NCBI GenBank assembly: GCA_950295325.1
Contig: OX485805.1
Location: forward strand, 54,708,758 to 54,772,757
Direction: 5' to 3'
DNA from: Polytrichum commune
Taxonomy: Eukaryota; Streptophyta; Polytrichopsida; Polytrichales; Polytrichaceae
Length of the DNA stretch: 64,000 nucleotides
Shown here: positions 4,104-61,353 of the stretch, in pieces
Layout: every line of letters begins with the position of its first letter
Numbering within the stretch: the stretch's first letter is position 1
Made by a program: the position numbers and the translations under genes
Notes under the pieces: generated by a model
Databases searched by the model: none
The model's input: the letters and a program-made list of their open reading frames with translations, nothing else
What the model was told of the DNA's origin: nothing

Positions 4104-4111
4104 GTACTGTC

Positions 4112-26722: not shown

Positions 26723-27262
26723 TACATACTTAAGTTATGCCCCATTCCCACTTGACTTTACCAAATAACCAAAGCATTTCCTAAAAACCAGGTAAAGCTC
26801 TCTCGGTTGTAGCAGAGGCATCTGGCTATCCCAATGCACCTACAAGAACTTGCTTCAAAGATTTTCGAGTAGGTTTTAGTTAAGTAGTTTTCACACATGT
26901 TCATTGTTTTATCTACCAAGCAATGACATGTTGGATAGTTTTTGTCCCATTCCCAAATGCCTTACTACTCATCTATCTTATCATTGGGTTTTGTTAACAA
27001 AACTCCTTGTGCCCTCATAGCTAAGACTAAAAGCAACCAACCACAAGGGCGGGAGGCAACACTTTTGAAGGTCCTACATTCTTGCCTCATGTTTGGGTGC
27101 TGATGGGAGGGTCGATGCTTAAGGCTTAAAACCTTCACTTTTAAACCATGCCACATCATTTGCCAACTAAGCTCGGGACTAGATAGTGTCGATGGTGTGA
27201 AGGCCGTGGTTTTAGAACCAACTTTTAGGCTTAGCTAAAATCAAGTGGGAAAGGGGCATTAG

Positions 27263-33790: not shown

Positions 33791-34902
33791 TGTGGATTCT
33801 GAGAGGTTTACAAAATCTTAAATATTTCTAGTTTTTGCAAGTCTATAAATTGCTTTTGTAGAGCTCACAAAGTCCCATGATGGAAACAGGGACCATTGTG
33901 ATGTGACTTATACCCTGATGCCAACATCAAGTTTGCTTTACAGGTAGACGAACTTTTGATTTTGGACCCTACAACCTTTACCGTGCATCACTCTTGAACA
34001 GGATTCACTGGTCAACAAGAGGTTTATTAACATTTGGGTGTGATTGCAGTGATCTTGTCTCAGGATGCCATCCAGAGTCCACACATCTTCTCCTAACCAT
34101 CCTGAGTAACTGAGCCATGTACCTTTTGGACTTGGCTTTGAACAATTTGCAAGAATTTGGCAAGGACCAGCATAAACAACCTACAACTTGATCCAACTCT
34201 GGCCAAAGAGTGATCAAGCCTCTTCGCACAAGTTTAATTGGAACTGCACTTCCAGGTACGTATTCCAATTACTCAACCCAATCCTTAAAAGCAGATTGCA
34301 AACATACTGGGTAATTTAGTTCAAGGATGATTCTCAAGATTTGGACTCCTTCATATCTACCATGCCTCTGTATATGCCCATACGGAGGGTACATGTGATT
34401 ATGATGATCTAGGGCAATCTTCAGTTTTTTAGTTCTGCTTGTTCCAGCATGGAGCTGCAAACAGGCATTTACTATTAGCAACCACACCGTTTATGGTATT
34501 TGGTGTCATGTACACTATTTGTGAAGGGCCTAAACTAGATGCCTAGAATCATATTGGCAATCAATTGCTAATACAAACTAGTTTTGGTATAATACGCTTG
34601 TAGTGGATGACCGTATGATGGTATTCATAGAATTTTCATATCAAGTGCAACTTGCATTTGAAGCTTCAAGCTTGTAGTGTCCAATAATCATATTTGTTAT
34701 CCAGCCATCTAGATGTGCACCCATCTTTCAACTTTGTGCCCCTAAACTTATATGATGCATGCTCTTTCTTGAACCAACATAGATTTCTTCCAAAACCATT
34801 AACAATCTCGGTGATATTCAGGAAATTTGTGGGAGGTCTTTATTCTTCTACAACTTCAACGACTAGTGTGCAAACTTCCTTTTCAACTCACTGGCAAATA
34901 CA

Positions 34903-41500: not shown

Positions 41501-42117
41501 ATTTCTTGTTAGAAGGGCTATAAGAGCTTCCTACATTAAAATTTTTTTGATCACTTGTGATTGGACTAAAATGCATTATAAGTGATTATAATCAGGGCCA
41601 TATAATATGGGAGCTGTGTACCCAGGGTTTTTCCTTCCCAAATCTTCATAATGGAGTTTGGTTTCCGTAGACAAGTGGCCAATCATAAAATATGTTGGTA
41701 AGTGTGGACTAAGTTAACACTATATTCGGTATTTGGAGACTTTTTGTTGATTATGAGACTATATAAGGATGCACATTTCAAAAATGGACCAGTAATGACG
41801 ACTAAAAATCCCATATGTATAATGGTATGCTACTATTATTATACATAAAGGCATGGAAGTGAACAAAAATGTGAGGCATACATGAAAATAGTTGCGTATG
41901 AAATGACAAATCGTTATGAATGGAAGGGAAGATGCGAAGAATGAATGGAAGTTGAATGAATTAATTGGGATAGAAATACAATTATAATGGAAATACCATC
42001 AATGTCTTGAGTAACTTGGAATAGCATAGAAAGTAAGCACTTAAATATGTTCTACACCTAAGCCCATTTAGGGAGTCCGTCCCACTAGTACGCTTCTAGT
42101 CACACTAGTCCGACCCA
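38509..42117. other. Gene-poor AT-rich spacer
   Basis: No convincing coding region. It contains the direct partner (39290-39800) of the repeat at 18540-19040. The last 100 bp flank the 3' end of element B; no terminal inverted repeat of B could be recognised here. Confidence 0.5.
39290..39800 (+). repeat. Dispersed repeat, copy 2 (pair with 18540-19040)
   Basis: Direct-orientation partner of 18540-19040. A local triplication-like run GTGCAAGTGGTGTGCAAGTG at 39455-39485 is longer here than in copy 1. Confidence 0.7.
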
Positions 42118-43105
42118 CTATTTTTTTTTGGCGGCTAAGTCTTTTTTTTTGGCGGCCTCCATGGCTCTAAAAATCTCAGGCCCACGACTGAATCCTTGTG
42201 TGTTGCCTGGATAGGAATATGTGTCGTTCTTGCATGTTTCAGGACGCGCTCCCGAATTGTACGAGGTGGTATTATAAGTAGAATACGAGGGCGTTTGCGA
42301 AAGGGAACGTCTTGCGCTTCTCCGGAGGGCCAAACAACGATCGGACTCGGAAGATGCGGCCTTGAGGGCGTGCCTATCCAAGGAGGACGTGGAGGAGGGC
42401 CGGGCACCAAGCGAGCGGGTAGCCACCTGCGAAACAGCGTCATAGGAAGATAAGAATAGGAATGGAGTGGGGAAAATAATGAGGGCGGTTTGGGATGGGC
42501 GCTCGTAAAGAGAACGGCACGCAAACGGAAGACAAGGAAAGCAAAAGCGGGAAAGGGGTTTAGGGTTGAGGAGGGCACCTTGGCTTTGGGGACGTCCATG
42601 CGGGGAACGGTGGGAACGAGGGGGGCGTCGACGGGAGCATCCGGAGCCGATGGAACTATTGCAATGTTGGATGGCGGGGGGGGGGGGGGGGGGAGTCGAG
42701 GCGTGGAGGGCCCACGATCGCGGAGGACGTTGTGGGGGGAGGAACGGAGTCGGCGGGGGAGGTGTGGCAACGGGGGCCTTCCATGCGGAGACGGTGGCTC
42801 GGCCCGCGACGAGCGACGGCGTCGTCCCTCGAGGGCGAGAGGTGTCCCAAACGAACGAGCGTCCGTTTCTCCTTGGAGAGGGGGGAGGGCGACGGGGCGT
42901 ACGCGCGGGGGACAAGTGTTGGGGGCGGGCTGTTGACGACGCCGTCGTCGCGGGAGTAATCCACGGCCGAGGCCGCGTCGACCGCCGAGAAGTGGTAGAG
43001 GGATGGCATTTGGAAGTCCGTGACATCGCGGGAAGGGGATGCGGGGGGCGAGAGGCGACGGGAAGAGCCGTCGACCACAGGGGCGTCGCATATGGGGGCA
43101 GACTA
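42118..43105 (-). CDS. Pro/Ser-rich protein with basic tail, two exons, unknown function
   Basis: Upstream exon about 43103 to 42573, preceded by a pyrimidine tract and CCCATAG acceptor. It is recognised by homology with element A: AASAVDYSRDDGVVNSPPPT. A G18 run (42676-42693, read as Pro codons) is followed by loss of the frame; the plausible continuation (NIAIVPSAPDAPVDAPLVPT) is in another frame, so a tract-length change or sequencing error is likely. The last exon starts at 42426 after TTTCGCAG and encodes VATRSLGARPSS, SYNSGARPE, FSRGPEIFRAMEAAKKK and a Lys-rich end, stop at 42118. The basic tail suggests nucleic-acid binding or nuclear import. The family is not recognised, and the frame of the first exon is uncertain. 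Confidence 0.45.
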
Positions 43106-43213
43106 TGGGCAAGAACAAGAACAACAACAATCACAACAACAAAAGACATCCAAAAACGGGGCAAGCATTAGATATGTGAACCACATGATAACAAGCAAAG
43201 ACATGGAGGCATT

Positions 43214-43982
43214 TCAAATCAATTTATTGAGTTTGGCGAGCCTCATGATGCTCTTATATACATTATCGCGGGGGCTTAGCGCCGCATTGCCGAAGGGGTT
43301 GGACCTAACAAAAAATGGGATGCTACCGGCGTGGAGCACGAGCCTTCTAAGGTAGGGGGCTAGCCTATCGACCAAAAAGGTGTCTTGCCTATCGCCGGTC
43401 CAAGTGTCCGGGAAGATGACGTTGCCCGGGGGGTTCAACACGCTCTTGGTGGGACTGTCGTCGATCAAGACGGTGTTCTCAGGAGTCGGCCACCACCCGT
43501 GGGGCGTCCCCTGCAGACGGGGGACGCCTTGCCAGAGTCTTGAGCGGAGGACCTTGAGGAACTGTTGTCCTCCGCCTCGACCGCCAAACTTGGGCACCGG
43601 TTGGCCCTTCTCGTCGAGCAGCTCGTCGCATTCCTCTTGGCCGAGGACGAGGCAAGGGCGCGGGAGATCACGGAACAAGAAGTCGACGATGGGCTCCGTG
43701 TTCTCCATGACCATGGAGCTCCACACAACGACGTGGGCGAACTCGACCACCTCGCGAAGGAAGTCGCGCAGGCCGGGACGGGCGCGGACAGCCTTGCGGT
43801 TTATGAGGGTGTCGAGCTCGCCGTCATAGTCCCTTTCGTCGGGGTGACGGAAGGGACGTGTGGGAACCCTGGGGATGTGTTGGGTGTGACACAAGACCCC
43901 GTTGAGGTCAAAAACTATAAAAGGCTTGTTCCTGGTTCGAGGTCCACTGGTCGAGGGGTTGCGACCTATCTCCGGGGGGTCC
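43214..43982 (-). CDS. FCP1/NIF-type HAD phosphatase-like exon of element B
   Basis: It begins after the acceptor CATCACAG and carries the HAD fold motifs: FIVFDLNGVLCHT (motif I), HVVVWSSMVMENTEPIVDFL (motif II) and NTVLIDDSPTK (motif IV), ending KLNKLI-stop. FCP1/SCP family enzymes dephosphorylate phosphoproteins such as the RNA polymerase II tail. Here the second Asp of motif I is Asn, a variant also present in element A and, as I recall, in some plant NIF-like proteins, so activity may be altered. It is either the last exon of the main gene or a separate gene: joining it to the obvious donor at 44605 leaves one surplus base. The 622-bp interval before it holds five palindromes. The A copy ends at the same conserved stop. 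Confidence 0.65.
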
Positions 43983-44113
43983 TGTGATGAACAACGCGAC
44001 TAGTTTAATTCTATGATCCAATAATGAAATTTTTGCGTTCAAAATAAAGACGATGCATTATGGGAAAAGAGGAGGAAGTAAGGAGGGTTCAAGGAAATAT
44101 GCACAAGGGCACA

Positions 44114-44267
44114 ATTACGAACGACCGTTCGTGAATGAAGGTTGCGGGGGCGGTGCGCATCATTTACGAACGCTCGTTCGTGAGCGCGGATGCATACATA
44201 TACGAACGCTCGTTCGCGAAGGAAGTCGAGAGGGGGTCGCACAGTTTTACGAACGAGCGTTCGTGAG
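44114..44267. repeat. B-type palindromes (4 copies) in an intron
   Basis: 44114-44135 (spacer AC), 44163-44184 (CT), 44199-44220 (CT, one arm decayed) and 44246-44267 (AG). All lie between exon 3 of the main gene and the HAD exon. The right arms here end CGTTCGTGA rather than CGTTCGTAA, a local sub-variant. Confidence 0.9.
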
Positions 44268-44554
44268 TGAGGTGTGTATGCAAAGAATGCAAAGACGCGC
44301 AAGAGCACAGACAACACAAGACGCGAGAATATGCAATAAGTTGTGGTCATGCGAGCAGAGATCGTCTGCTCATATATTAATTCGGTGAATATGTACAATT
44401 GTCTCGCGTGATAATCTATCAAAATTTCCTAAGGAAAAAATCCAGTGTCCTACAAAATTGATCGGCCCAAGGGATCACGTAGAAAAAGGCTCGCGCGGGC
44501 AACGTGATGTCGATGGAGTTGAAGCGCCAAGAACACAACGCGGGGGTTAGTGAT

Positions 44555-45022
44555 GTTACGAACGCGCGTTCGTAAAACATTTGGCATTCTCAGAGATCAG
44601 TTACCTCTTTGGTTAACGAACGCGCGTTCGTAATATCCATTGGGGTAGCAGCCTCTGGATCCATGACCTCCGCCGGACGCTCCGCCTGAGACGACTGGGT
44701 CTGTTGGATGAGCTCCACGTCGTCGTCCCCGCCCAGGTCGAGTCTCTCCATGCGGACATCCTCCATGTGCGCGGATGGATGTCGTTCCTGTTCAGGGCTC
44801 TCCACGACCATCCCACGCGGACCTGCCGAGTCATTGGGGCTCCCCTGCGTTTCCTCCACAATGACCATGTCAGTGTGTTGCGCAGTGTCATCGCCCCTCC
44901 TATCTACAACCCTTGGGACGACGGTGAAAGAGGCCGTGTCCGTGTCTGTGGGCAGTCCTACCCTTGAAGGGGGAGGGGTGAGGACTGCCGGACCTGAAGA
45001 TTCACGAACGCGCGTTCGTAAA
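44555..45022. repeat. B-type palindromes (3 copies), two inside coding sequence
   Basis: 44555-44576, 44613-44634 and 45001-45022, all with spacer CG. The second ends eight bases before the exon 3 donor and is read as TNARSL; the third is read as LRTRVRE. These three are the only clear copies with a CG spacer. Confidence 0.9.
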
Positions 45023-48000
45023 TCTTCATCCTCCCTTAGCGCCGCCGTGATTGCATCGTGGGAGGTTGAGGCGGTCGCCGTCACCTCCGGGGGCAATGGA
45101 CTTCCCGCCGGCGTTGGGTGTGGCGCTGTTTGGTGGGAAGGCCCTCCTTGGTACATGACTGGAGGTGGGGGCTGTGAGGGGTATCCTCCAGGGGGGAAGG
45201 GGTAAGGTTGCTGGACCGGCGCAAAGAAGCTCTGCATGTTTCTGAGCATCTCGAAGATGGCGTCAGTTTTGACCGCTGATTCCCTCAGCTGCTCTTGCAG
45301 CCTGGCCAGATGCTTGGCGCTTTCCTCCTGGGCTGCAGCCATTTCCTCCTTCATCTTCGCCTCCAGCTTGGCGTTGAGCTCAGAGACGGTAAGCGCCTCC
45401 TCCTTCACCCGCTTGTTCTTGTCGTAGTCCACCCCAAGCTCGGCCATGATGTCCATGTCCCCCTCGTCCTCGTCGGAGACCTCGATGATTGCTCCCGGCG
45501 GCAACTCCACGTAGGGAGTCTTCTTCATCCTCCTCCTCGTGTTGCGGAAGAGGTCCAAAGATGGACGCGAGCGTTGGTCGAGGATGTCCAGGGTTTCCAT
45601 CTTCGGAACCACGGCGGGCCTTGGAGACTGTGACGTCGAGCATCCGCCTGGCGTTCCGAAAGGCTCCGCAAGAGACGTTCGCGCGGGGAGGAGGTCCAGG
45701 GTTGTCCCCGCGGACGACCTTGTATAACCACCCGGAGTCCCTTGAGGGTCGGGAAGATCTGTCGTTGGCGGCAAGATCCGAAGCGGGGGTACGTCGAAGG
45801 ACTGCAGAATGGCGTCCACGTTGGCGGAGGGGGCGGGCTCGTCGTCCTCTGAATCGTGGAGTGGTATGCCCTCGTCGGCGGGCATACTGAAGTCCATCCT
45901 TGGGACAGAGATGTCCTTGAGGTCCATCGTCGACGCCTTCGCACGGTGGATCTTGAAGTCTTCTTCGTCGATAGCGTCAACGAAGGTGTTGACTACGAGA
46001 CCCATCATCTGTGAGAAGAGAGCAATAAGGTCAGAAAATACGAACGCACGTTCGTAAACATCAAAGCGTGGCGTGCAACGAGTTTCAAGCATTACATTAC
46101 GAAGGGGGTTATGTTTACGAACGAGCGTTCGTAAACATCAATGCGTCACGTGCAGCGACTTTGAAACAATGCGTTGAGAAGTTGGTTAACTTTACGAACG
46201 AGCGTTCGTAAATGGAGTCTGGACAACTTACCATGGCCGCATACATGAATTTGGAGCCTCCACATACGTTGTATACCGTCTCTCCACTTATAACCAGACT
46301 CTGCAATATAGAGACGTAGAACTCCATCCTGAGTTCCATGGCGGGGAAGATGGTGTAGAGGGTCTCTTGCAGCAGATCCTTGGGAGGGGGATGCGGGATG
46401 CTGTAGATTTTCTTGAACGTGTTGTTCGCCTTGATAGGCGGTCGCCCATCCCTAAGCTCATTGTACGTCAAGAAAATCAGGCTGACCGCTCCCACCTGCT
46501 TGTTGCCCCTGGCCTCGTTGATGGCCACGATCCCCTCCGTCTTCGCTGGCACGTACGTGCTGTGGAAGATGCTGTACTCGAATTTGATCTTCTGCTCGTA
46601 CAGCTCTGTGACGACCGACAGCTTCTCCTGTTCGACTATCCACAGCCAAACGTGTGGCTCCCTCATGGCCGGCGATTTGAACTCCATGAACTTGGCCATG
46701 AAGGGGTTGTAGAAGGGAATGTCCTTCCCCCCTGCCTTGACGCACCCGGGATCCCCCTGAAATCGATCAGGGCAAAAGAGCAACCCCGTTGATCCTCCCT
46801 CACCTCGGCCCTGCTTATGGTGCCGTCCCACTTGGAAAATGTGACCCTCTCCACGCCGGAGGTCATCACGCAAAACCTTGCCACCCCTTCGAATGTGGCG
46901 TTCCTCTTCCTCTCCAAAAATTGTATGTACAACATTACCTCGTGGGGATCCGTGTCGGTTTTCTTAGTCCTTTTGTTCCCCTTCAACTTCAAAACCGAGG
47001 CGTGCTCCTTGACCAGACTGCGCATGGAGGCTCCGTTGATGTTGTAGTCGACCTTTAACAATTGCCATTGCGGCCAGTTGATGTCGCCGTCGACTTCAAA
47101 GATTTTGTACTCTGGTGCGAGTACGCTCAATTTTCTCATGGCAGCAGTCTTCAGCTTCCGGTGGTCACACCACTCCTTGATAGAGTACGTGCCGGGCTTG
47201 TGCTTTGGCCTCTTCAAAAAGATCTTGGGATAGGGAAGGTTTCTTCCCACGGTGTTCCCAAGAACATGAATCGCACACCTCTTCAGCTCTGACTCCGTTA
47301 ATCCCTGGAGGTGTCTAAAGAACTCCCTCAGTAGTGGGGGCGCCTCACCGGTTTTTTCCGTGCTGTACTTCTCCTCGGTGTCGGGATTGACCAAATCGCC
47401 CGAGCTGTGTGCATCAAAAAACTGTGTCCACAAGTCCCAGGTGTCCCTGTTGCAGCAGATCAGTCTGAGCTCACCCTTCAGCTCAAGCACTGACTTGGTG
47501 GTGGTGGACTTCATATCGATGGAAGAGAACTTGTCTACCATCGCATCGCAAAATGCCTGCACAAAACAAGATGTCAGTGTTGCACATAATACGAACGCAC
47601 GTTCGTAAATTGAGTATGTAATTGAAGTTTTCATGAATCTAACACTTTACGAACGTTCGTTCGTAAACTCACCTTCCATTGGGGAGACTGGTTCTTGGCG
47701 TTCTCCCTTTCCTTTGGTGGGCATCCGTGTGCCACCCAGACGTCTCTGGCAGCCACTATGTTAGCCGCCCACGAAGCCTCGAACGCCTTGATTTTGTTCC
47801 CCGAGTTCAGGAAGGTTGAAATCTTGCGCAACTTGTCCCAATCGTCCGACCAGACCAAGAACGCCTTCCAGTACCGCAGGTCAGCCTTCAGCTCGTGCTG
47901 GAAGTTGTCGTCCTTGAGGATCTGTTGCGATGCCTCCAAGCTGTGCTGACCATCTATAATCCAGAATTCTCCATTCTGGATTCGCGGCCAATCCACCTCT

Positions 48001-48965
48001 GTCGGTCGGGATGTCAGCCCCTTGGGCATGACGCAGACTGTCTGTCTATCCCACTTGACGTTATTCATGAGGTTGTTTATCTGCCACTTCACCCCACCGC
48101 TCTCGCGAGACCTTACCACCCACTTGTTGGGTGACTTTTCGCACTTGAAGCAGTCCACGTTGAACGTGAAGTGGCGCCCCATGGGCCAGCAATCCTTCGA
48201 GTAATTATTGAAATCTCGTAGGATCTTCGTTGCCTTCACCGCATCTGGATTCTCACCCTTCTTTAAAGGGGTTGGCATCACGGGAGGAGAGCTCACCTCA
48301 GCGCCCTCTGTTACCCCAGACCTCTCCATTTCGTCCCGGGACCTCTTCGATGGCGTGGAATGACGGCTGGGACCCTCCGTCACCCTGCTCGCGGAAGGCA
48401 CCGGCTTGGGTGCACTTCTCGATCCTCCTGCCCCGGATGCGGATGGTTTCCGTGGGCTCTTCTTCTTCTTGTTGGCTTCCGCGACCGCGCTATTGTACTT
48501 GGAGATATTCAAGGAGAGCGCGGCCAACTTCCTTGCTGTCCAGTACGAGCTCAGGGCGTACTTCGTGAAGAGGTCCTTGAGGAAGTGTTTGGCATCAGCC
48601 ACTACGTTATTTTCCGCGTATGTGTAGGAGAAACTATGTCTCCTGTACTCCAACAATAGGTTAATGTGATCCTTCTTGTTTTTCATGTCTAGAATCACAT
48701 AATCTCCTTGTGCCTCAATTGATTCTACTTCCCAAGTCTTCATCTGCACCCATTGCTCTGGCTGGTCCGGCGTCGTTTCCAGCTCGTATGTGAAGCGAAG
48801 ACAGAAAAAACCGTCTGATGTCTTCTCTGGCAGTGCCGTCCATTCCCCTATGAAGTCCTCCTTGGGGACATAATTATCGTTTCCGTTGGGGTCGGACACT
48901 GACTCTGGTAGTTGATCTATCTGCACTGCGAACATCTCAATGGCGCTTCTGCTCGGTCTGGCCAT
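44605..48965 (-). CDS. Element B main gene: ParB/DGQHR-like exon, conserved unknown exon, acidic coiled-coil exon
   Basis: Three exons with clean GT/AG junctions, all phase 0. Exon 1 (48965-47673, 431 codons) starts MARPSRSAIEMF and has a Lys/Ser-rich linker, a possible Cys pair (NVDCFKCEKS) and FWIIDGQHSLEASQQIL, resembling the DGQH motif of ParB/DndB-like proteins. Exon 2 (47556-46232) is conserved in element A but of unknown fold (KFSSID, FFRHLQGLTE, IDFRGIPGAS, VWLWIVEQ). A 1-nt loss in a C-run near 46733-46739 breaks its frame, and this could be a sequencing error. Exon 3 (46008-44605) is acidic, with a SEDDEP patch, a Glu/Ala-rich coiled coil and a Pro-rich tail. Introns 47557-47672 and 46009-46231 carry palindromes. 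It probably continues or pairs with the HAD exon at 43982. Confidence 0.65.
46037..46212. repeat. B-type palindromes (3 copies) in the exon 2/exon 3 intron
   Basis: 46037-46058 (spacer CA), 46114-46135 (AG) and 46191-46212 (AG), filling about 30 percent of the 223-bp intron. Spacing is 77 bp start to start for both intervals. Confidence 0.92.
47588..47667. repeat. B-type palindromes (2 copies) in the exon 1/exon 2 intron
   Basis: 47588-47609 (spacer CA) and 47646-47667 (TT). The second overlaps the end of the GTGAGT splice donor of exon 1 by one base. The corresponding intron of element A carries three A-type palindromes, one just after the donor. Confidence 0.92.
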
Positions 48966-48995
48966 CTGCAGAGCACATAAACATTTAGTATTGTG

Positions 48996-49563
48996 TTTAC
49001 GAACGAGCGTTCGTAATTGACAAAGCAAATCATATACACTAATCATTGAACTCTGGCTATGGATACCCGTGAGAAGTTGTAATGATGTCTTCGCTGATTT
49101 CATTTACGAACGATCGTTCGTAAAGAATGTGGTTGCTAAGGTGTATTTGACACAAGTTTACGAACGTGCGTTCGTATTGTTTCTAAACAAGTCCACGAGT
49201 CGTCCAGGGTTATCTAATTTCCATGAGGGTTGTTCGAATTTCCATGAGCATCTTCTAAATAGGTGAATTAATACTTTAGTTCTTATTTACGAACGTGCGT
49301 TCGTAAATAATGCTACTTGGGAATGCAGACAATTACCATGAAGGGTTTGGTATATTGTTATAGTTTGTGATTACGAACGTTCGTTCGTATTTTTGTATGT
49401 GTAATTGGATTTGAGGATTTTCTGATGTACAGGGTATAGACGAATATACGAACGTGCGTTCGTAAAAATGGAGGGTGAGGTGCGTATTTATGAACGCACG
49501 TTCGTATATGTTTGTGGGGTAAGGCATGTATTCACGCCACATTTACGAACGAACGTTCGTAAA
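48996..49563. repeat. B-type palindromes (8 copies) upstream of the main gene
   Basis: 48996-49017 (AG), 49103-49124 (AT), 49157-49178 (TG), 49286-49307 (TG), 49370-49391 (TT), 49445-49466 (TG), 49487-49508 (CA) and 49542-49563 (AA). The last is perfect over all 22 bases. They occupy the 600 bp immediately 5' of the minus-strand gene. The sequence TCTGCAG directly before its ATG also fits a splice acceptor, so part of this block may be a 5' intron. Confidence 0.93.
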
Positions 49564-49616
49564 TGTGGTCATCTGGGATTAGGAAATGGTATATTTATTT
49601 ATGTACATATATATCC

Positions 49617-49642
49617 GTACATATACGTATACGTATATGTAC
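49617..49642. repeat. Perfect 26-bp AT-rich palindrome
   Basis: Half-site GTACATATACGTA followed directly by its complement with no spacer, 54 bp after the last B-type palindrome of this block. It lacks the ACGAACG core and so is a separate structure. Confidence 0.85.
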
Positions 49643-50009
49643 ATATGCGTATAAATGTTGGTATGAATGTTGCAATCTGGCATTGTTCATGATCCTGCAA
49701 CTCGTGATCAGATTGATGAAACACAAGTGAAAAATGGAATCAGAACAAAATTGCGAGTCAGTGATTGATAGTTCAGAATGAAGAGGAAAGTGTTATTTCA
49801 TACAAAACATGACATACCTCATAATGCAGAAAACAAATCACAAGGAATTCATCAAACAACAATTTCAGATTGTGAAGGAGTGATTTGTAAAGGAAACCTG
49901 TACTCACATTGAATTGTTGCACACAAATCCTCCTGCCTTCACTTTGTCACACTCTCAAGCCTTCACAACTTATATGCAAATCCTACACAAACCCTGATGT
50001 ACACAACTC

Positions 50010-50345
50010 ACAAGCTTCACAAAACTCAAGCTTTCTGAAGCTCTCAAGCTCTCAAGCTCTCAAGCTTTCCAAATCTCTGAAGCTCTCAACCTTTCTGAAA
50101 CTCTCAACCTCTCAACCTCAAACTCAAGCTCTCAAGCTTTCTAAAACTCAAGCTCTCAAGCTTTCTAAAACTCTAAACCTCTCAAGCTTTCTAAAACTCT
50201 CTACCTCTCAAGCTTTCTATAACTCTCAAGCTCTCAAGCTTTCTAAAACTCTAAACCTCTCAAGCTTTCTATAACTCTCAACCTCTCAAGCTTTCTATAA
50301 CTCTCAACCTCTCAACCTTTCCTACTCTCAAGCTTTCCTATTCTC
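50010..50345 (+). repeat. CTCAAGCT/CTCAAGCTTTCTAAAA repeat array
   Basis: More than twenty degenerate units built from CTCAAGCT, CTCAACCT and TTTCTAAAAC. Open frames here are translation artefacts of the repeat (LKLSxxLKLS). Confidence 0.85.
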
Positions 50346-50539
50346 AAGGTTCTGACAACACAACAAAACAACATTCACAATGAGGCTCTAAAATTGGCAA
50401 GGGCTTCGCCGCACCTAAGAGCTCCTCTCCTCCTCTGCTCCAAATGACAAATGAGGAGGAGAGAGAGGGGCGCGGGGAGGTAGCCGGCGCCGCTAGGGTT
50501 TCCAAGCGGTGGCCACGTGGCTAGTGGCCACTGGCGAGG

Positions 50540-50800
50540 GCTGGGATGGGGGAGGGGGAGGGGGATGTGGGATGGGGAGGGGGAGGGGGAGGGGGAGGGG
50601 GATGGGGATGGGGATGGGGATGGGAATGGGGAGGGGGAGGGGGATGGGGAGGGGGAGGGGGATGGGGATGTGGATGGGGAGGGGGATGGGAGGGGATGGG
50701 GATGGGAATGGGGATGGGAGGGGAGGGGATGGGGAGGGGATGGGATGAGGATGGGATGAGGATGGGATGGGAGAAGGGGAGGGGGAGGGGATGGGGATGA
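50540..50800 (+). repeat. GGGGAT/GGGGAG minisatellite, strand-asymmetric G-rich
   Basis: About forty hexamer units of GGGGAT or GGGGAG, so the plus strand has runs of four or more Gs throughout and the minus strand is pyrimidine-rich. Such sequence can form G-quadruplex or triplex DNA. Open frames in it are artefacts. Confidence 0.9.
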
Positions 50801-51203
50801 GGGGATACCATGGGGACATGGAGGGATGAGGGTTCAGGAAAAATGAAATAGGAGATGGGAGGAGCTTAGTTTAGGGACATAAATTTGACTTTCCGTATCC
50901 CCTTAGTACCTCGACATATGGATTCCTTGTAAACATATTTTAGAAAAGTATGTTCAGATAATTTGTATTTAACAATTCATGTCATTTAGTAGGTTTTCGA
51001 TGAAGAATCCACCCCCAAGATGCAAATGTCGTTTTCATGAACGAGACATCTTTAAAGTTCTTCAATGGTTCCTCAAATAAATATTACATATATAAATGAC
51101 TCAATTTAAATTGTGGAGAGGGGCTATCTGATTCTCCACAAGAGGTGGATGAAAATTCAATTTTCAATACGATGTCATTAATTTCATGAGGTGTTAGCTT
51201 GAA

Positions 51204-51556
51204 CCACCCTTAATATGATATTTAGTGTTAGATACTCTAAATACAAACGCATAGTACACTAAATATCACTAACCCTATGAAGGTAACTACTATTCATTGC
51301 GAACTCAAACACTTAATTTCAACTATAATGGTAATATGTGGATGTCGCATGCACAAATTTTGTGTAAGGAAATTAATATGAAAAAAACAATTAACAATGA
51401 TAAAAGCATAAAGGACATGGTAGTAGGAAATGTGGTGGCCCATTTAATATGTCCAACACTAATTATCAAATAATTGAAATTTAGTGTTGACCATGATAGC
51501 GTAACAACACTATATTATACAATCAAACACTAAATATCATATTTAGTGTAGTGTAT
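51204..51556. mobile_element. MITE with palindromic CACTAAATAT ends
   Basis: The right end reads CACTAAATATCATATTTAGTG, itself a near-palindrome, followed by TAGTG. The left end TTAATATGATATTTAGTGTT is its inverse. About 350 bp. Relatives are at 14496-14798 and near 21390-21500. No target duplication could be fixed. Confidence 0.65.
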
Positions 51557-51739
51557 TTTAGCCATGTGGTCACATGTTTTGCTAGTAGTATCAATTGATA
51601 GTATGAGCTTCCCATAAATTAAGTTAGTGCGATATGGATTATTTAGGAGTCGATATTGTTTGTGTATATAATGCATTGAAGTAACGATCTAAACCCTAAG
51701 CCCGCAAACCACATAGACAACTATTTCACAAACTCTATA

Positions 51740-51771
51740 CCCTAACCCCAAACCCTAAACCCTAAACCCTA
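51740..51771 (+). repeat. Short interstitial telomere-type tract
   Basis: Three to four CCCTAAA-type units (CCCTAACCCCAAACCCTAAA and two more). CCCTAAA is the plant telomere repeat. The tract is short enough to be incidental or an end-repair trace. Confidence 0.7.
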
Positions 51772-53083
51772 CATCTTTTTATCTTACCAACCTTTCTTAT
51801 ATATGGCCATGTTGTGGTCTATGCGCATCATGTCAAAATGGTCTACCAATGTTGGTTCGATTGGAAATTGCTTTATTTGGGTCATAGCAACTATAATAAT
51901 CTAGACTCATGCCAATAATTGTCATTTTGATATAAAACATTGGTTTAGGGGGTGAAGAGTGAATTTTGAAATGCTAGCCCTTTCACCTTAATAGTTTTGA
52001 GTGCAATTTGATCACACAATACACACTTAGTCTTATTATAACATGAATGGTTTAAGACTTCAACTTAAATCAACAGTTAAGCTATGGTCATGCACATACT
52101 TCTTGTTGCAAATAATACAAATATATAATTGTAAGTGCATACTATTGTATGCACCATTCCAAATTAGTTATCCATTTCCACACCATGGTGGACCTAAAGT
52201 GAATTTCCAATAGGACGTCAAGTCATTTAATTAGGTGTCAACTTGAACTAACGATCGAATACTAGTGCATTAAACTTTAATTTTCACCAATGATGAATTG
52301 CAACAATGATTCATATTAATATGGGCCGATGTTTGGTGAGCCTCCAGTTCCAAATGTCCTCAATCTACCTAGCACAAGCCATTATGGATTAAGCGACTTT
52401 TTATTGGTATTCATGCACTTGGTGACCATATTACAAGCATTTTTTTTATGTGAATCATATGATACCTACAATTTTAGGAGATTCCACAATATGTTCTTAG
52501 CCACTCTTACCTCATTGTGTGTGTGAATATATATATCACTTAGACCTTCATCAATTCACTTGGACTTCACACCTTAGTCGCAAATAATTTAATACTCAAT
52601 GTTAACCCATCAACCCATATATATATATAATATAATAACCCATATATAAAATAGTAAAATAGTAAAATATACATATATATACATATAAATATAGACATAT
52701 AGACATATTTTCGTGCGACCTTGGTAACAACTAAGGTGTGCGACGGATTTATAGATTTACAATATGTTGCGTGCACGCAAGACATGTTCCATACATAATG
52801 CTATTTATATATTGCGCATGGATGGAATGGCATATTGTTAGGTCAAAGTAGGCGGCGGGAATCCGCTTTTTAAATAGCATCCAAGGGATTTTGAACCATC
52901 GGGGGGAAGGTACTTAAAGCTCTTCCCCCCCACAGAAGAGCTCTTTTCTGCGGCACATCCAAGTGTGCGCTCCACAGACCTGACTGGAACGCGCTCAAAC
53001 CATTTTCTTGTGCGCCAACCCTACACCTCCCAGGTCCACTACAGACTGCACATACCCGTATATACCGCCGCAAATACCGGACG

Positions 53084-54187
53084 TTTACGAACGCACGTTC
53101 GTAAACGTGAGTTGGTAGCACATGTACATATAGGTACATGCACATACACAATAGGTACATCGATATGATGTGAGTTGTTTACGAACGTGCGTTCGTAAGT
53201 TGATCACAACCGTACTCGACATTGAGTTCCTTATAGACAGAACTAGGCACGAAAATTGTGTCGATGATATACGAACGTACGTTCATATATCTACCTTCAA
53301 GACCCAGACGCGCATGAGTTCCCGTGTAACCGTTTTCTCCAACGGAACATCTGGTGATGGGATATTTACGAACGTGCGTTCGTAAATATCACCTGGGATT
53401 ATTTTTCAAGAATCCAAAAAACATTCCTTAATTTATACACTTCAGTGCATTGGCCACGTTAACAATATGCAAGTTAAATACGAACGAGCGTTCGTATTTC
53501 TCACTACCGTTTGTGTCCGCGGAGAATTATGTTAGTTGAATTTTACGAACGCACGTTCGTAAATATCACCTGTCCACCGTCCACGCATCCACCAACAGGC
53601 CTGTTGACGCAAGCATGTGTAGAGGACTACACCGTGTTTATGATAGATACGAACGCTCGTTCGTATCTATGCAATCATGATTTAGTGATAGATGTCGACT
53701 GTCATTTTCCACTGGTTATTGGATTTCATGTTTCCCTGTAACGTGGCTATAGATATCTCTATTCGGACGTGTCCAATCATTTTTTCCAAACACTGTCGCG
53801 GCTGTGACATACAGATGATCGGTCGTTTGCATCCGCCCTTAAGTTTCGGCTGGAACTTACGAACGATCGTTCGTAAACACTCGCCCATCAAATATGATGC
53901 TTACTGCATGTGGATAAAGTGGCAAGTATATTTTAGGTGCTCTTATAATATGTCCCATTTAGATTTTATTGTATATTGGATTGATATTTTCGTCCGCGCG
54001 TTCGTGAATATATGTGCTTGTGTTGTCCCTTGGTGGTGGACAACCCTTCCAATGTTTTATTGGCGACTCGACCCAAAGCCCTTCACGGGTAATATATATC
54101 GGAATGGGGTTCCGTTGTGCAGGGACGTTTGAGTCCCGTGTAGGATTTGCATGTCATCGGGCTGTTGTCGAACGCACGTTCGTCTTC
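53084..54187. repeat. B-type palindromes (10 copies) upstream of the transposase-like gene
   Basis: 53084-53105 (CA), 53178-53199 (TG), 53268-53289 (TA), 53365-53386 (TG), 53477-53498 (AG), 53542-53563 (CA), 53646-53667 (CT) and 53856-53877 (AT), plus two decayed copies near 53989-54010 and 54166-54187. Spacing ranges from 65 to 210 bp. The last ends about 95 bp before the first Met of the transposase-like gene. Confidence 0.92.
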
Positions 54188-54282
54188 ATATGTGAGGTCC
54201 CGCAACGGTGTGGCGAGAGTTGTTTGTGATTTTTGAGCCATATATGTAGGCATATCTCGTATCCGCTTTTGTATGCATTGCG

Positions 54283-57200
54283 GTGGTTGTTGTGTTGGTC
54301 ATTTTATTGGTGGTTTGTTTAGGTTGGATGGCGATGCACGTTGGATATAGTTCATTGGAGTTGTCCACAAAAGCTTCCTCTTCCGATGATGACTGTGAAC
54401 TATCTTCGCCATCGGCGGGTAGTCATGGCATGGCAAATGCCATGGGTGGGTTTGTGGATGCATCCTCCCACGAATCATTTGAAGCGCACGAACAATCTAT
54501 ACGTTCCGGGGATGACAATGATGACATTCCGTTATGTGCCGGTTTCGGTAGGGAGCAATGGGTGGGCCTTGATGTTGTTCTTTTCAACGATGTTGGTGTC
54601 CTCGTGGCAGATGGCATATGTAGAAACTCTGATCCCCGTGATTGTGTGGATGCCAACCCCCTTGGTCCCGATGATGTGGGTGTGTGCATCTTGAATTCTT
54701 TGCTTCCGCTTGACGTCCCGGTGACATGGAGATTTTCCTTGCGTCGATGGCCTCTTTGTCGGGTTCTCCATGACGGAGTAAGCTTGTTGGACCATGAGCG
54801 CCGCCATAATCAAACGCAATTAGCTTTGTTGGCCAAAATACGTCCTCGCAAAGGCCTACGCAGATATGATTCTAACCGTGTGCCTCGTGGAGATAAGGAA
54901 CGTCGACGGGATCGCATATTGGGAGACGAAACTATCCGTCTTGTGTCCGCCAAGGACTGTTGCGAGAGGAAATGTTGCCAATTTTTCCCGCGGGAGAAAA
55001 TTAAGTCCCTACGTCAAGAGATGTGGCTTGCAGATTTCCGTATGAGATCGGCAAAGAAACTCGAGGTCCACAAAAATGTCCACATTGACACCCATGGGCG
55101 TAAGGTGGTCACACTTGAGAATGTGGAAGTGTGTTGTACTGCGTGGTATACCATCCATGCCGTGTCAAAGTCTGACTTTTATAGGTTTCAAAAATATTCA
55201 TTGTTGGGTCGCCGCTCTCGATTTCATGGCAATTCGGGCACAAAGAAACCTAGGGAGGCTACACTCCAAGCCTCCGCGACACTCTCCACCATCATAGTCC
55301 CATTGGCCGATGCAATGCCCCACAAGACGAGGACATTGTCGTCAGGGGAGAAAGTTGTACAAATGGTATTGCCCACGGGTACAAAATGGAAGAACATATT
55401 AACGGACATCAATGAAGTGGGTCGCATAGCGGGATGTGGGCCCATTTCTTTGTCCAAGTTGAGTGTAATTAAAAACCAACAGTTTGCCGAATACATTTTG
55501 AAGAGACCTGGGGACAAATTCGCTAGGTGTACGACGTGTGAAAAATACAAAGGTCTTCGAGACGCCCACCCCATAGGCACCGAATCCCACACTAGACACC
55601 AAGCAAAATATATTGAACATGTCAACAACCAAGAGGCTCACCGTCAAGATTACTACAAGAACCGTGCTCTATCCATAATGAGGCCTACAGAGGTTCTAAC
55701 AATCATCCATGATAAAATGGACCACGCCAAGACCGCATGCCCTTGTTATGCACGCAAAATTAAGGCCACGGATGGTCTCTTCAAGTTGTCCGTATCTGCC
55801 ACAGGTTTGTATTGAATCACAAATATGTATTCAAATTCTCTCAAATTTTACTGGGTGTGTTTGCCAAATGTCCAATTTCATACCTCCGTTTGGAGTTGTC
55901 GTTGTTATTGTTGTTGTTCAAGCATCGTTTGTTTTTTTTCGCAGGGATGATTGCCCACGGCCATGGAGACGTAAAGTATGCCCATTATGGGTTGGATTTT
56001 TACCCTGGCGATGCTAACCACACAGTGGGTTCATTTGCAAAACTCTTGCGCGATCTGGAGAAGCCGCCGTTACATTCATCACGTGCACTTTTTGATGGTT
56101 GTGGAACGACACCCCTTTACGAAGCACTGCTTGCGGGGAAGGAGGTTTGTATGTCGTCATTGGCAGAACCACCGGGAGAACCTATTTGTGCAAAACCATT
56201 GCCTCCAACTCTTCACGTTCAACTTGATAATTGCGCGAAAGACAACAAATGTCGATACGTATTTTGTTTTTGGTCATTGCTCGTGGCGAAAGGAATCTTC
56301 AAGGAGGTGTTTGTGTCGTTTTTGATGGTGGGACATACACACGACGACATTGATGCATCATTCGGACGGTGGAGCATGAAGTTGCATGAAGAAGATTTTC
56401 CAACCATACCTCTTCTTATGAAATCGTATATGGATTTGGACCATATGCCAGCAATTCCGCACATGATTGAGGAAGTACCAGATTTCAAGGCCTTCATCAA
56501 GTCATACATGTTGAAGGGAGGGGACCGTTTGGTGGGGCATACCAAAGCACAACAATTCCGATTCTATATAAGGGATGATGGTCTCCCAGCCATGCAATTC
56601 AAGCTTTTGTGCACATCTCCTAATTGGGGACCGGATGATGGTATACTCGTATGGCGTCAAGACAATGATGGGAAATGTTTGCTCCCGGATGGGGATCCAA
56701 AGCCTTGCAAACCCGACCCCATGAGGAATGGGCCGGAAATCATCAAAGGCATATCCGGATTCATTGAATATTGGAAAGAGTTGTGTGAGGAGGACATCAC
56801 TAGACGTGTTAGAGATACTCATGAACCTTTGATTGCGTATTGGGATCGCATTCGCTCGGCCCTAATGACACTTGGTGGTGACACCCGTACAACTTTAACA
56901 CAAGGATTTTGGCCACAAAGTCGTTTGACGGTTGTCGAGTCCGACACCATGGTTTTTAGCAATGGAGACGTTCGTGAAGAGTTCGCAATGGACGAGCATT
57001 ACGTTGGCCCTGCCCGCAATCGACCGGCACCGTCGTTTCGTGTAGGTGTTGATTGCCATGAAGGTTATTTGGTCCTTGTACGAGCAGGGGATGAGGAACA
57101 TCCCAAGCCAATTTGGTTGGTGAAAGCATTGTCTTTACCCAATTTTGTTCGAACTAGCCCCAACTTTCGTCAAATTGAGGTGGAATATTGTCGTCCAAGT

Positions 57201-57464
57201 ACTAAAGACCAGAACGTGCTACGCATTTATTTAGGTTGGGACACCAAAAAGAATTTTAAGTGGACAGTGGACTCAGCGTACACACCGGTTTGGATAAACA
57301 CGGATACTATACTTTGTGCTTGGAAGCCGCGCAAAGGTTTCAAAACAGAAACAATGACCATCCCCCAAAAACATATAGATTTTGCCAAAGACAACTTGGC
57401 ACGTATTGCAGCTGCGGAAAATGACGTCGATAATGGATATGAAGCGGAAGACGGAGATGTGTAA
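54283..57464 (+). CDS. Two-exon transposase-like protein (DUF7869-like RNase H fold), about 1013 aa
   Basis: Exon 1 54283-55804, intron 55805-55944 (CCACAG/GTTTGT ... TTTTCGCAG, phase 1), exon 2 55945-57464. After an acidic N-terminus comes a Cys-containing basic region (CCERKCCQFFP), then the RNase H-like core: Asp near 480 in HDKMDHAKTACPC, Asp near 602 in HVQLDNCAKDNK, and GHTHDDIDASFGRWSMKL near 638-655. These motifs match the DUF7869-type proteins found in many eukaryotic mobile elements; Asp-Asp-acidic/His would be the metal-binding set. No stops in 1000 codons, so it may be functional. The true start may be Met16 or Met18. Ten palindromes lie upstream. If it mobilises element B it acts on the element ends in the nucleus; this is inference. 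Family assignment is from memory of motifs. Confidence 0.72.
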
Positions 57465-57829
57465 ACATAACATAGGTGGGAGTTCATGGCGAAAAACATG
57501 GACGCTTAGTAGACTTGGTTTTTAATAGACTTCATGGACTTGTCACACTCCATTGTGGTATACGTTTGGGATGTGCCATCCAAATTCATAAGAGCCTTAC
57601 TTATGGGATGCGCACCCCAAACTCTATAATGACATAAACCATTTGTTTTTTTAGATTCGATTGTTATTTTCTACATGGAGCTCACGTTTGCATTTTAATT
57701 GATATTCTCTATTTTTAGAAATGAGAATATTCTTTACGTGCAACTTTTTAAATCGTTATGTTCTTGATGTTCCCAATATTCCGTATGCCCACAATATTGG
57801 CATCCCAAACTATGGGCAGATTTTATTTT
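57465..57829. other. Junction between element B and truncated gypsy pol
   Basis: AT-rich, no gene. At 57566-57627 there are imperfect inverse motifs (TTTGGGATG ... CATCCAAA; GGGATGCGCACCCCAAA), and at 57830-57847 a perfect 18-bp palindrome (GAGACTTTC and its complement) at the point where gypsy coding similarity starts. The gypsy 5' part is missing. Confidence 0.4.
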
Positions 57830-57852
57830 GAGACTTTCGAAAGTCTCCGATT

Positions 57853-60174
57853 AACGAATATAGTGTTAAGGATACATTCCCCATATTGTTGGGTAGACCT
57901 TGGTTGAGGATGTCGGATGCCATAGTAAATTGGGGAGGGGCGAAGCCATCCATCACGTATGGTCCTAAGGACAATAGAGTCGTAGTGTCGATTGGGTCAC
58001 TAGGAAGTTGGATGAAGAAAGAATTGTATCTACCATCGGAAGAGGTAGTTGAGAATGAGGTGAAGGATAACCTTGATGAAACTTTAGTGGGAGTTGTTCA
58101 ACCCGAAGGTCAAAGAAAAATTGTAAGTTCAAGTTCAGGAAGCTTAGGTCCTAAGTTTTATCACCGTATAGATGATGGTGAGTACTTCGAATGGTTGAAA
58201 GAGTATCCCGAGTCGGAATACGATGTTTTAACCATGTCTCACCAACCATATTTAAGCGACAAAAGGCTTAGTTCTAGAGGTGAGGATTACTTGTCATTGG
58301 AACCGTGTGAGGTTCTTACCGAGGAAGAATGGATTTTAGGAGGGTTAACTCTTTGGTTAGATAGTGTAGACGAAAGAGAAATTAATGCGATACACGTGGA
58401 TGGTACGCAAGACGACGAAGCTATTTTGGAGGCCTCTAAGTTAGAAGAGCCATTACATTTTAAGACAACCTCTACGGGTATCATTGTGGGGCACGATATC
58501 AAGGACTACCCGAACGTGCCGGCGGATTGGTATAGAAACAAGGACGAACAAACTCACGTAGCGGAGGGCGATTGGCGGCGCGTGGACGTGAAAACGAAGC
58601 ATGGAAAAATCCGTCAAATAAAAATGGGGTCTAACTTAGGCGAGGAGGAGATTAAGGAATATAGCGATTTAGTCGAAGAATTTAGCGACACGTTCGCTTG
58701 GTCCTACGATGAGCTTAAGGGTATCCCACGAGAGATGGTGGAACACCGTATACCATTGATTCCGGGATCGAGGCCAATTAGGCAAAAGGAGAGAAGAATG
58801 AACCCGCAACTTCAATTGTTGGTTAAGGCGGAATTAGAACGATTGTTAAACGCCGGTTTTATTAAACCGGTCGAGATTACGGATTGGGTATCGCCGATGG
58901 TGTTGGTGAAGAAGAAGAACGGGAAGTTAAGAGTATGTGTGGACTACCGGAAGCTAAATGCTTGTACTCAAAAGGATCACTTCCCTCTACCGTTCATAAC
59001 AACATTATTAGAGGAAGTTGGAGGACACGCTAGGTATACTTTTATGGATGGGTATGCGGGGTATAACCAAATTTCAATAGCACTCCAAGACGTCCACAAA
59101 ACCGCATTCACAACACCTTGGGGGACGTTTGTGTGGGTCGTCATGCCTTTCGGATTGTGTAACGCCCCGGGAACTTTCCAACGATTGGTGATGTATATTT
59201 TTACCGATTTATTGTATAAATCCATGACCGTATTCATTGACGATTTTAGCACTCAAAGCGGTGTGGGTGAACACTTGCATTGCGTTAGGGAGACGTTAGT
59301 TAGGTGTAGGAGAATGAGGTTGGCCCTAAACCCGGATAAGACATTCTTGGGGGTCAATAAGGGAGTGTTACTAGGTTATGTCGTTAGTTCAAAAGGGCGA
59401 GAGCCGGATCCGGACAAGATTGTAGCTATAAGTGAATTAGCAACTCCAACTAACTCCAAGGGAATCTCAAAGTTACTAGGGCATGTGGGTTGGTATCGGG
59501 AGCTCATTCCAAACTTTTCGAAGATAGCGGTGCCTATCACACACTTACTCAAAAAGGATGTCAAGTTTGAGTGGACGGAAGAATGTCAAAGGGCCTTCGA
59601 AGAATTAAGGGATAAGTTGAGCACTTATCCCATTTTGAGGCCACCCGATTGGAACAAACCTTTTCATGTTTATTGTAACGCGAGCAATGTGGCCGTGGGG
59701 AGCGCACTTTGTCAACCAACGGGAGAAGTGGAGAAAGATCAACCGATCGCTTACGCTAGTAAGCAATTGACGCCGGCCGAGCGTAATTATTCAACCACGG
59801 AACGTGAATGCCTAGCGATGGTGTTCTCGGTCAAAAAGTTTAGACACTACTTATTGTGTAACCCGGTAGTCTTCTTCGTTGATCATATGGCCATTAAGTA
59901 TCTAGTTAACAAAGCGGAGCTAAGTGGTAGGTTAGCTAGATGGGTTTTGTTGCTAAGTGAATTTGATTATACGGTAGAATACAAGCCCGGTCGCATGCAT
60001 TTACAAGCGGACCACTTGTCTAGATTGATGGATAGCTTAGGAGAGAACCCGGTGGATGATAGGCTCGTGGATGACGGTCTTTTCTTAGTTACCTCAACAC
60101 CGGAGTGGTATGCGGGCATTGTGGAATTTCTAACGACCCACAAGTTGCCCGGCAATTGGACGAAAGAAAAGTGA
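57853..60174 (+). pseudogene. Ty3/gypsy pol, protease end to RNase H, 5'-truncated
   Basis: It opens in the protease C-terminus (FPILLGRPWLRMSDAIVNW); everything upstream (gag, protease active site, 5' LTR) is absent. Reverse transcriptase begins near codon 335 (WVSPMVLVKKKNGKLRVCVD), with KLNACTQKDHFPLPF and the catalytic FIDD near codon 450. RNase H follows near codon 596 (VYCNASNVAVGSAL), where the usual first Asp is Asn, then KQLTPAERNYSTTERECLAMV. The frame ends at a TGA at 60172-60174, and the same frame continues as integrase from 60181. One nonsense codon thus separates the two halves. No terminal sequences survive on the left. Confidence 0.88.
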
Positions 60175-60180
60175 AGGAAG

Positions 60181-61353
60181 GTGAGGGTTTATAGTAGACA
60201 ATTTGTCGTCGTAGGTCATAGATTGTTTAGAAGAGGCGCCGACGGGTTACTACGAAGATGCGTGTCCGAGACGGAGGTTGAGGACATTCTAATCACATGC
60301 CACGATAGCGCATGCGGCGGCCATTTCTCGGGTCAACTTACCGGACAAAAAATCCTTAGGGCGGGCTACTTTTGGCCCACCCTATTTAAGGATGCGCACG
60401 ACTATGTGAAAAAGTGTGACGCTTGCCAACGGTATGCCCGGAATGATCTCCGAATGGAAATGCCGATCCACATTTCGTTGCCGTTAGTTCCGTTCGAAAA
60501 ATGGGGCATCGACTACGTGGGCGAGATTCACCCCCACTCTTCGAAGGGCATGAGGTATATTGTGGTTGCGACCGAATATCTTACTAAGTGGGCGGAGGCT
60601 AAAGCGGTGAAGACCGATACGGCGGAACACGCGGCTACCTTTATGTACGAAAACATAATCTCGTGGTTCGGGGTGCCGAAGATACTTGTGAGCGATCGTG
60701 GTACGCATTTTCTAAACGATTTGATTTCGGCAATGACCGCAAGGTTTCGAATCGATCACCGGAAGACCACCCCCTATCATCCTCAAACCAACGGACAAAC
60801 GGAGCGGGTTAACGGCATTTTAGTAAGTATCCTACGGAAAACGGTCCTAGATTCTAAACGAGATTGGGATACTAAATTAACGGCGGCACTTTGGGCGTAT
60901 CGCACGACCTATAAAGTCACCACGCACGCGACCCCATTTTCATTGGTTTACGGCTTGGAAGCTACTCTCCCAATCGAGTACGAAGTCGAATCGCTTCGGG
61001 TGGCCGTGAACACTCGACTCACCTACGAAAAATCTCTAAGAAATCAGCTTACGGACTTGGAGGCGCTCGACGAACGAAGGCGAATGGCGGCCCAACATAT
61101 CGAAGCCATCCAACGCCGACGGAAGCACATCTTCGACAAACGACATAAGAAAAGGGCACTCCAACCCGGCATGATGGTCATGATCCAAGATGCAAGGAAG
61201 TTAGAATTTCCCGCAAAATTCGATGCGGTATGGCTCGGTCCGTACCTCGTTAACGAGGTATTTCCAAACAATTCACTTCAATTGGAAACACTAAACGGAG
61301 AGCTCTTTCCAACGCGGACCTCGGGGAGTCGTTGTAAGCAATACCGGGCGTGA
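60181..61353 (+). pseudogene. Ty3/gypsy integrase portion of pol
   Basis: Same frame as the upstream block after one TGA. Zinc-binding HHCC region (CHDSACGGHF ... KKCDACQ), catalytic core WGIDYVGEI, VSDRGTHFLND and PQTNGQTERVN with the D-D-E residues in place, then a basic C-terminus with a GPYLVNEVF motif. The frame ends at 61353, 60 bp before the 3' LTR. Integrase would insert the cDNA, but without gag, protease and the 5' LTR the copy cannot move by itself. Confidence 0.88.

Follow-up and report, generated by a model that had tools for sequence, protein, structure and literature searches.

Why should one short palindrome recur dozens of times within ten kilobases of a plant genome, and what might read it? 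The question arises in a 64-kb stretch of Polytrichum commune (contig OX485805.1, positions 54,708,758 to 54,772,757; 42.5% GC), called the window below and numbered from its first base. An earlier reading of its letters, the original prediction, had noted thirty palindromes between 44114 and 54187 and taken them for sites of a dimeric protein encoded by the surrounding element, with the VANDAL/VANC system of Arabidopsis as parallel. In this study we find that the palindromes belong to a 16,152-bp element (window 41716-57867) that is bounded by terminal inverted repeats (TIRs) and carries two divergent genes, that they are better conserved between copies than the coding sequence, and that palindrome type follows the clade of the protein encoded by the main gene. 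We infer that the palindromes are quite likely the binding sites of the element's own protein, which would act against silencing in a VANC-like way with a different protein and a palindromic site.

Twenty-nine palindromes of the form ACGAACG-NN-CGTTCGT, with at most one mismatch in the 14 core bases and a 2-bp spacer, were found in 44114-54187; the thirtieth of the earlier count, at 53987, is degenerate, with four mismatches against the 20 arm bases. Arms that had been described as fixed over 10 bp proved nearly fixed in the inner 8 bp only (TACGAACG; the full A-type palindrome is written TACGAACG-NN-CGTTCGTA), the outer bases drifting, often on one arm alone. The spacers do vary as described, with 10 different dinucleotides among the palindromes of clade A, the protein clade of this element (window 44-49 kb). 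A search with the 18-mer TACGAACGNNCGTTCGTA at up to two mismatches gave 28 matches in the window, all within 44116-53875, against a mean of 0.01 in 100 shuffles, and a chance origin is rejected on these numbers. A further site at 42851 (42848-42869), downstream of the HAD exon and outside 44114-54187, is a hybrid, ACGAACG..CGTCCGT, with one mismatch. It too was rejected as a product of chance, since four other copies (L098, L102, L104 and L105) have at the matching place a site at most one mismatch from both the A and the C palindromes.

The 29 sites lie, as had been stated, in introns, in both upstream regions and twice in an exon. Ten are in introns of the main gene on the minus strand: two in intron 1 (47557-47672; sites 47588 and 47646), three in intron 3 (46009-46231; sites 46037, 46114 and 46191, in a 77-bp tandem duplication) and five in intron 4 (43981-44604, GT-AG; sites 44114, 44163, 44199, 44246 and 44555). 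Two are in exon 4. Eight occupy the 615 bp 5' of exon 1 (48966-49580; 48996, 49103, 49157, 49286, 49370, 49445, 49487 and 49542), and nine lie in 53061-54190, upstream of the divergent DUF7869 gene (53084, 53178, 53268, 53365, 53477, 53542, 53646, 53856 and 54165, with the degenerate 53987 among them). None was counted in exon 1, exons 2-3, the HAD exon, 49581-53060 or the DUF7869 open reading frames (ORFs). The motif is dense in the non-coding DNA of the element and absent from most of its coding regions, and site-bearing units have been tandemly duplicated (77 bp and 57 bp).

The palindromes had been held to be confined to a single element, which is true of the window and not of the genome: the assembly (407.8 Mb, 64 contigs) contains 4680 exact A sites, and the reversed control gave 0. 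The sites are not spread evenly: the first 100 listed of the 4680 places, all within the first 2.54 Mb of C1, group into seven clusters, every one of which overlaps element DNA or borders on it, and over that part of the genome the motif is element-specific. All 13 fetched stretches holding these clusters contain DNA alignable to the window element. With five further stretches they make 18, taken from the first 100 places listed and not at random, and of the 113 exact sites in them, alignable element DNA contains 40 and, with a margin of 1.5 kb, 96; the remaining 17 are 1.6-2.6 kb away, 14 of them between the ends of an element at C1:639070-648560 and 3 in L103. Other copies have their sites in place as well, and over the stretches covered the original prediction thus withstood both conditions that it had named as refuting it. 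In three clusters the main gene has the DUF7869 gene (84-95% identical) as its neighbour; sites occur in the upstream DNA of DUF7869, before exon 1 and in introns, and 3.2-3.3 kb without sites separate the DUF7869-side from the exon 1-side group. At up to one mismatch the window element has 30 sites (42851 included) and the most complete other copy, of about 15.5 kb, has 27. The C1:639070-648560 element, 9.5 kb long with both terminal repeats, has 40, many in tandem arrays. At C1:640646-646097 (L095, L096) clade A palindromes are arrayed at spacings of about 34 and 93 bp; the only match to the query proteins there was a HAD fragment.

How strongly the sites are held constant was assessed by comparing the window copy, in each of two regions, with three other copies, in alignments where MAFFT may be drawn to the sites and the spacers serve as internal control. 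In the main-gene half the site cores were identical at 237/257, 254/276 and 159/179 positions (the third copy covers part of it only) and the spacers at 22/36, 30/40 and 17/26; identity was 0.62-0.69 in flanks within 15 bp, 0.51-0.71 in other non-coding DNA and 0.79-0.81 in exons. Upstream of DUF7869 the cores reached 109/112, 118/121 and 119/124, against 0.50-0.62 for spacers and 0.44-0.61 for other bases. Overall, between-copy identity was 89-98% in site cores and 50-75% in site spacers. As the cores exceed the exons in identity, the sites are more conserved than the coding sequence.

The window itself also holds a paralogous element of a second clade, B (window 4-9 kb), broken and cut off at its 5' side (2597-9126, minus strand). 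Its layout is the same but its palindrome is a different one, TTGGGTCG-NN-CGACCCAA, and the A palindrome is absent from it. Eight palindromes GTTTGGGTCG-NN-CGACCCAAAC (5394, 5698, 5767, 6980, 7015, 8465, 8522 and 8579) are placed by the splice signals in introns 1, 3 and 4 or in the part corresponding to exon 4; TTGGGTCGNNCGACCCAA and TACGGACGNNCGTCCGTA are further palindrome strings besides the A type. A terminal repeat of the same kind as in the 16-kb element marks the left end at 2597, an ORF with a NIF domain spans 4260-4958 and main-gene pieces span 6048-9126, the pieces being 31-43% and NIF 40-43% identical between the paralogues. Another clade B copy bears 12 sites of the B type and 0 of the A type.

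Does the palindrome change together with the protein? Protein searches of public contigs gave 1, 132 (best 120 listed) and 42 metagenomic relatives, which fall into clades A, B and a third, C, the clade of P0001. The frames of these relatives run into introns, and palindromes were decoded from the peptides, clade C being known from peptides alone. In 3466 residues we decoded 83 palindromes, against a mean of 0.64 and a maximum of 2 in 50 shuffles, with a decoder that admits only arms of the form TT[AT]xxxxCG, a form chosen after the families had been seen. Among unambiguous arms, the 21 occurrences of ACGAA all belong to clade A and the 14 of ACGGA or ACGGC all to clade C; TGGGT, TCGGT, TCGGG and TGGGC are restricted to clade B. 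Exon 1 relatives were sorted into A or C only, as there is no intact clade B exon 1 for reference. Four arms are odd, two within clade A (P0152, P0157) and two one-step variants (P0009, P0090). On a rapidly built tree with 70 rows, of which 32 carry a label and 38 none, and with near-copies favouring clustering, seven labels require 8 changes against 17.8 when shuffled (0/200 as low); ACGAA forms one side of a branch. Five of the labelled rows (P0022, P0045, P0058, P0011 and P0019) have peptides that fit more than one arm, the C at -3 in P0058 being certain. Palindrome type, in short, follows protein clade. P0051 carries two TCGGT and one TGGGT in a single tandem array, which looks like turnover in progress.

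The main gene, divergent to DUF7869, has an exon structure and splice sites predicted from the letters: exon 1 from 48965, the block 47556-46232, exon 4 and the HAD/NIF exon in frame. Exon 1 (47673-48965) would encode an N-terminal PH/PTB-like fold (a weak match) and a ParB N-domain fold at residues 266-395, both from structure matches, which for the ParB part include KorB. Exons 2-3 (46232-47556), one coding block in relatives, would form a helical part resembling a helix-turn-helix (HTH) and then an amino DNA-methyltransferase fold. A supposed intron 2 at 46757-46803 was rejected; relatives code straight through it, hence it is a frame break in the window copy. Three helices of the model, 163-173, 177-186 and 188-195, are candidates for an HTH that would read the site. 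The fold comparison covered residues 223-447, whose predicted Rossmann-like fold matches beta-class N6-adenine DNA methyltransferases (M.BceJIV, RsrI, CcrM and the eukaryotic MTA1). Exon 4 (44605-46008) is the low-complexity C-terminal part, and the last exon (43217-43980), in frame across a GT-AG intron, carries the HAD (NIF) domain (PF03031, E 5.1e-14), the only domain above the Pfam cut-off in the main protein. By sequence the protein has no relative in the PDB. The original prediction had proposed a transposase or a ParB-like or HAD-linked protein: the ParB-like and HAD parts are exons of one gene, and the element is wider than the 44114-54187 assigned to it, taking in the DUF7869 gene.

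A segment of this protein that may read the site lies at about residues 188-200 (P0003 numbering). When 17 clade A rows were compared with 17 clade C rows, 13 columns were fixed differently at a threshold of 0.85, and five of these are residues 187, 192, 194, 196 and 198 (P 0.0026), in and around the third model helix. In a separate test within clade B we looked for covariation over the 435 pairs that can be formed from 30 rows, of which 16 have a readable palindrome. Two exclusive residues in 188-200 are common to just two pairs: P0051/P0056 (N198 and N199), which alone carry TCGGT, and P0058/P0070 (G196 and V198), which alone have C at -3 and do not come out as sisters on the tree. Of the three motif changes within clade B, two go with changes at residues 196-199, and the segment is, to judge by these comparisons, probably part of the site reader and not all of it.

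Taken together, the paralogue's own palindrome, the link to the clade and the partial link to the segment support the idea of sites for a dimeric element-encoded protein. We suggest that the main protein, with its ParB N-domain fold, HTH-like part with a variable basic stretch, methyltransferase fold and HAD domain, derives from a ParB-methyltransferase fusion; such fusions are known in phages and bacteria. A dimer would read two 8-bp half-sites, TACGAACG and CGTTCGTA. With sites throughout both upstream regions and in the introns, the protein could mark the non-coding DNA (promoters, introns) of every copy, and the marking would most likely keep both genes active against host silencing, in the way of VANC. 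Specificity would reside at least partly in or near residues 188-200. Once it shifts, sites might be replaced across the element by mutation and tandem duplication, leaving families with different palindromes. Template switching at quasipalindromes could perhaps both lengthen arms and transfer a change between them, helping the two half-sites to change together; quasipalindrome correction is a known mutation process. It is also conceivable, though we regard it as doubtful, that a eukaryotic transposon acquired its ParB-methyltransferase protein from a bacterium or phage and made a parS-like array out of it, the protein loading at palindromes scattered over promoters and introns, coating chromatin as a clamp and keeping the element active, with families separating by joint change of half-site and reading residues.

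The work on VANDAL21 (PMC5735166) describes a comparable layout, in which VANC21 binds YAGTATTAY (9 bp) in introns and upstream regions, the motif spreads by tandem repeats and the targets of VANC6 carry other motifs. Both systems thus have a short, dense, family-enriched motif in the introns and upstream regions of a DNA transposon, different motifs in related families, turnover by tandem repeats and proposed coevolution with an element-encoded protein (PMC5735166). Here, too, related families have different motifs, which change along with the protein, the residue-level covariation being partial. However, the VANC21 motif is 9 bp long and arrayed in one orientation, whereas ours is an 18-bp palindrome with a 2-bp spacer. 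VANDAL elements pair VANC with a Mutator-type transposase, VANA; the folds predicted here are ParB-like, methyltransferase-like and HAD, with DUF7869 as the other gene, and the likeness to VANC is one of layout. Demethylation, shown for VANC, would here be a prediction. With ParB/parS (also Noc and KorB) the element shares the predicted ParB N-domain fold and clusters of palindromic sites whose half-sites are 8 bp long. Unlike ParB/parS, the element has a 2-bp free spacer, no GERR in exon 1 and a fusion to methyltransferase-like and HAD domains, and it is a eukaryotic transposon; no ParA-like ORF was noticed around it, although no search was aimed at ParA. Among the matches listed in the open-access literature there was no paper on such an element, subscription papers being outside the scope. 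If our reading holds, this would be a further case of a transposon that, through scattered sites for a protein it encodes, marks its own non-coding DNA, new in the different protein and the palindromic site, and the three clades, with several palindromes and a co-changing protein segment, would offer a direct test of how a protein and dozens of sites shift specificity together.

Several observations weigh against this reading. The clustering of the A/C residues depends on the conservation threshold (P 0.023, 0.0026, 0.093 and 0.042 at 0.80, 0.85, 0.90 and 0.95). Within 188-200, no exclusive residue is common to P0055 and P0063, the TCGGG pair, and ACGGA and ACGGC rows are alike; P0051/P0056 and P0058/P0070 each have two to three exclusive residues in common outside the segment too, and the TCGGT rows P0051 and P0056 are sisters and therefore count as one event. 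Taken alone, the ACGGA, ACGGC and TGGGC rows cluster no more than shuffles do. The best Foldseek E-values are only 1.1e-3 and 8.1e-3. GERRxRA is the CTP-binding motif of ParB, and (D/N/S)PP(Y/F/W), for example DPPY, the catalytic motif of amino methyltransferases. GERR was not seen in the two exon 1 sequences read, where GQHS, placed by reading along the sequence, stands at the likely position, and in the sequences read, unlike in the methyltransferases named above, DPPY is, on the same kind of reading, replaced by DFRxxPG; hence neither activity can be assumed, and the methyltransferase-fold part is probably not an active enzyme. The anti-silencing role itself is drawn by analogy with VANC. 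Finally, a plain dimer site does not require that the flanks of the clade A palindromes be self-complementary, as they are above chance in the window sites: at positions 4-10 outward from the core there are 76 matches against 55.1 ± 6.1 (P 0.0003), and the self-complementarity spans about 10 bp in copy-specific sequence.

Such flanks would suit palindromes that act as hairpins of RNA or single-stranded DNA, for instance in splicing of the main gene, as would arms able to pair and sites that lie 5, 19 and 28 bp past the splice donors of introns 1, 3 and 4. Hairpins would, however, permit compensatory variants, while each clade keeps one fixed arm sequence, tied to the protein. Many outer arm bases are altered on one side only, clade B flanks show no excess of self-complementarity (P 0.24, n=8), and the nine-site cluster upstream of DUF7869 lies outside the predicted exon-intron span of the main gene; we think this explanation very improbable. 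Still less can be said for a reading in which no protein binds and each palindrome is either a very small mobile insert or the outcome of mutation on its own, which we regard as extremely improbable. Spread by tandem duplication is indeed visible (the 77- and 57-bp units, the C1:640646-646097 arrays and the mixed P0051 array), and quasipalindrome correction would supply a process, but the constraint on the cores at homologous places far exceeds that on spacers and flanks, and the sequence is clade-specific.

Sites confined to an element with TIRs and a probable transposase gene might instead serve transposition, a transposase or accessory protein binding them and assembling the two ends. In the window copy, though, the terminal 1.1 kb on the left and 3.7 kb on the right are free of sites, which speaks against an end-binding or transpososome role; in the C1:639070-648560 element the nearest sites come to within about 0.9 and 0.8 kb of the ends, and the covariation was seen with the ParB/methyltransferase protein (the comparison covered that protein only). 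This seems to us distinctly unlikely. An autorepressor or copy-number regulator acting on the same sites would fit the clusters upstream of both genes and the presence of KorB, a ParB-fold repressor, among the structural matches. Yet a repressor would seldom require sites within introns and exon 4, and the dispersal resembles that of VANDAL21; we hold this alternative to be unlikely, while granting it some weight. A prokaryotic or viral origin of the palindrome was rejected: the 18-mer occurs in 57 genome_contigs and 7 viral_contigs stretches, mostly at one place each, and neither P0001 nor the DUF7869 piece had a protein relative in viral_contigs. In five stretches from one Verrucomicrobiales metagenome-assembled genome (L001, L012, L016, L023 and L030) the 18-mer stands within longer hairpins that share other flanks and are apparently unrelated.

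The ends of the element are set by a left TIR (41716-41743, plus strand), of which 25/28 bases match the right one (57840-57867, minus strand). Homology between copies stops at 41715-41716 and at 57867-57868, in four stretches each, that is, where the TIRs sit, as in a TIR DNA transposon. For the target-site duplication there are only candidates, from two copies in which both ends were seen: at C1:639070-648560 CATA lies outside AACAC, and the window copy fits only TTAA outside CAC, a different choice of end. The DUF7869 gene (54250-57461, plus strand) consists of two overlapping ORFs with a match to PF25273 (E 1.1e-39), and its product is a probable transposase; the name DUF7869 was not met in the open-access literature searched. 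The site-free middle of the intergenic region (49581-53060) was rejected as a recent nested insert: no pair of TIRs and target-site duplications was found, and four other copies show such a gap, 3.2-3.3 kb long, at the corresponding position. Between the HAD exon and the left end, 41744-43216 is GC-rich, 96% identical in L105 and open for 349 codons on the minus strand. An ORF for a Ty3-type reverse transcriptase (57886-61350; PF00078, PF17917 and PF17919) starts at the right end of the element. Elsewhere in the window, two long ORFs in opposite orientation (15629-18088 and 34867-37260) are 73% identical in DNA and, read by eye, presumably encode TPR repeats and a protein kinase. Inverted 581-bp repeats (23956-24535 and 26145-26725; 95.5% identity) lie near an ORF at 25119-26153 that we take, again by eye, to be a mariner-type transposase.

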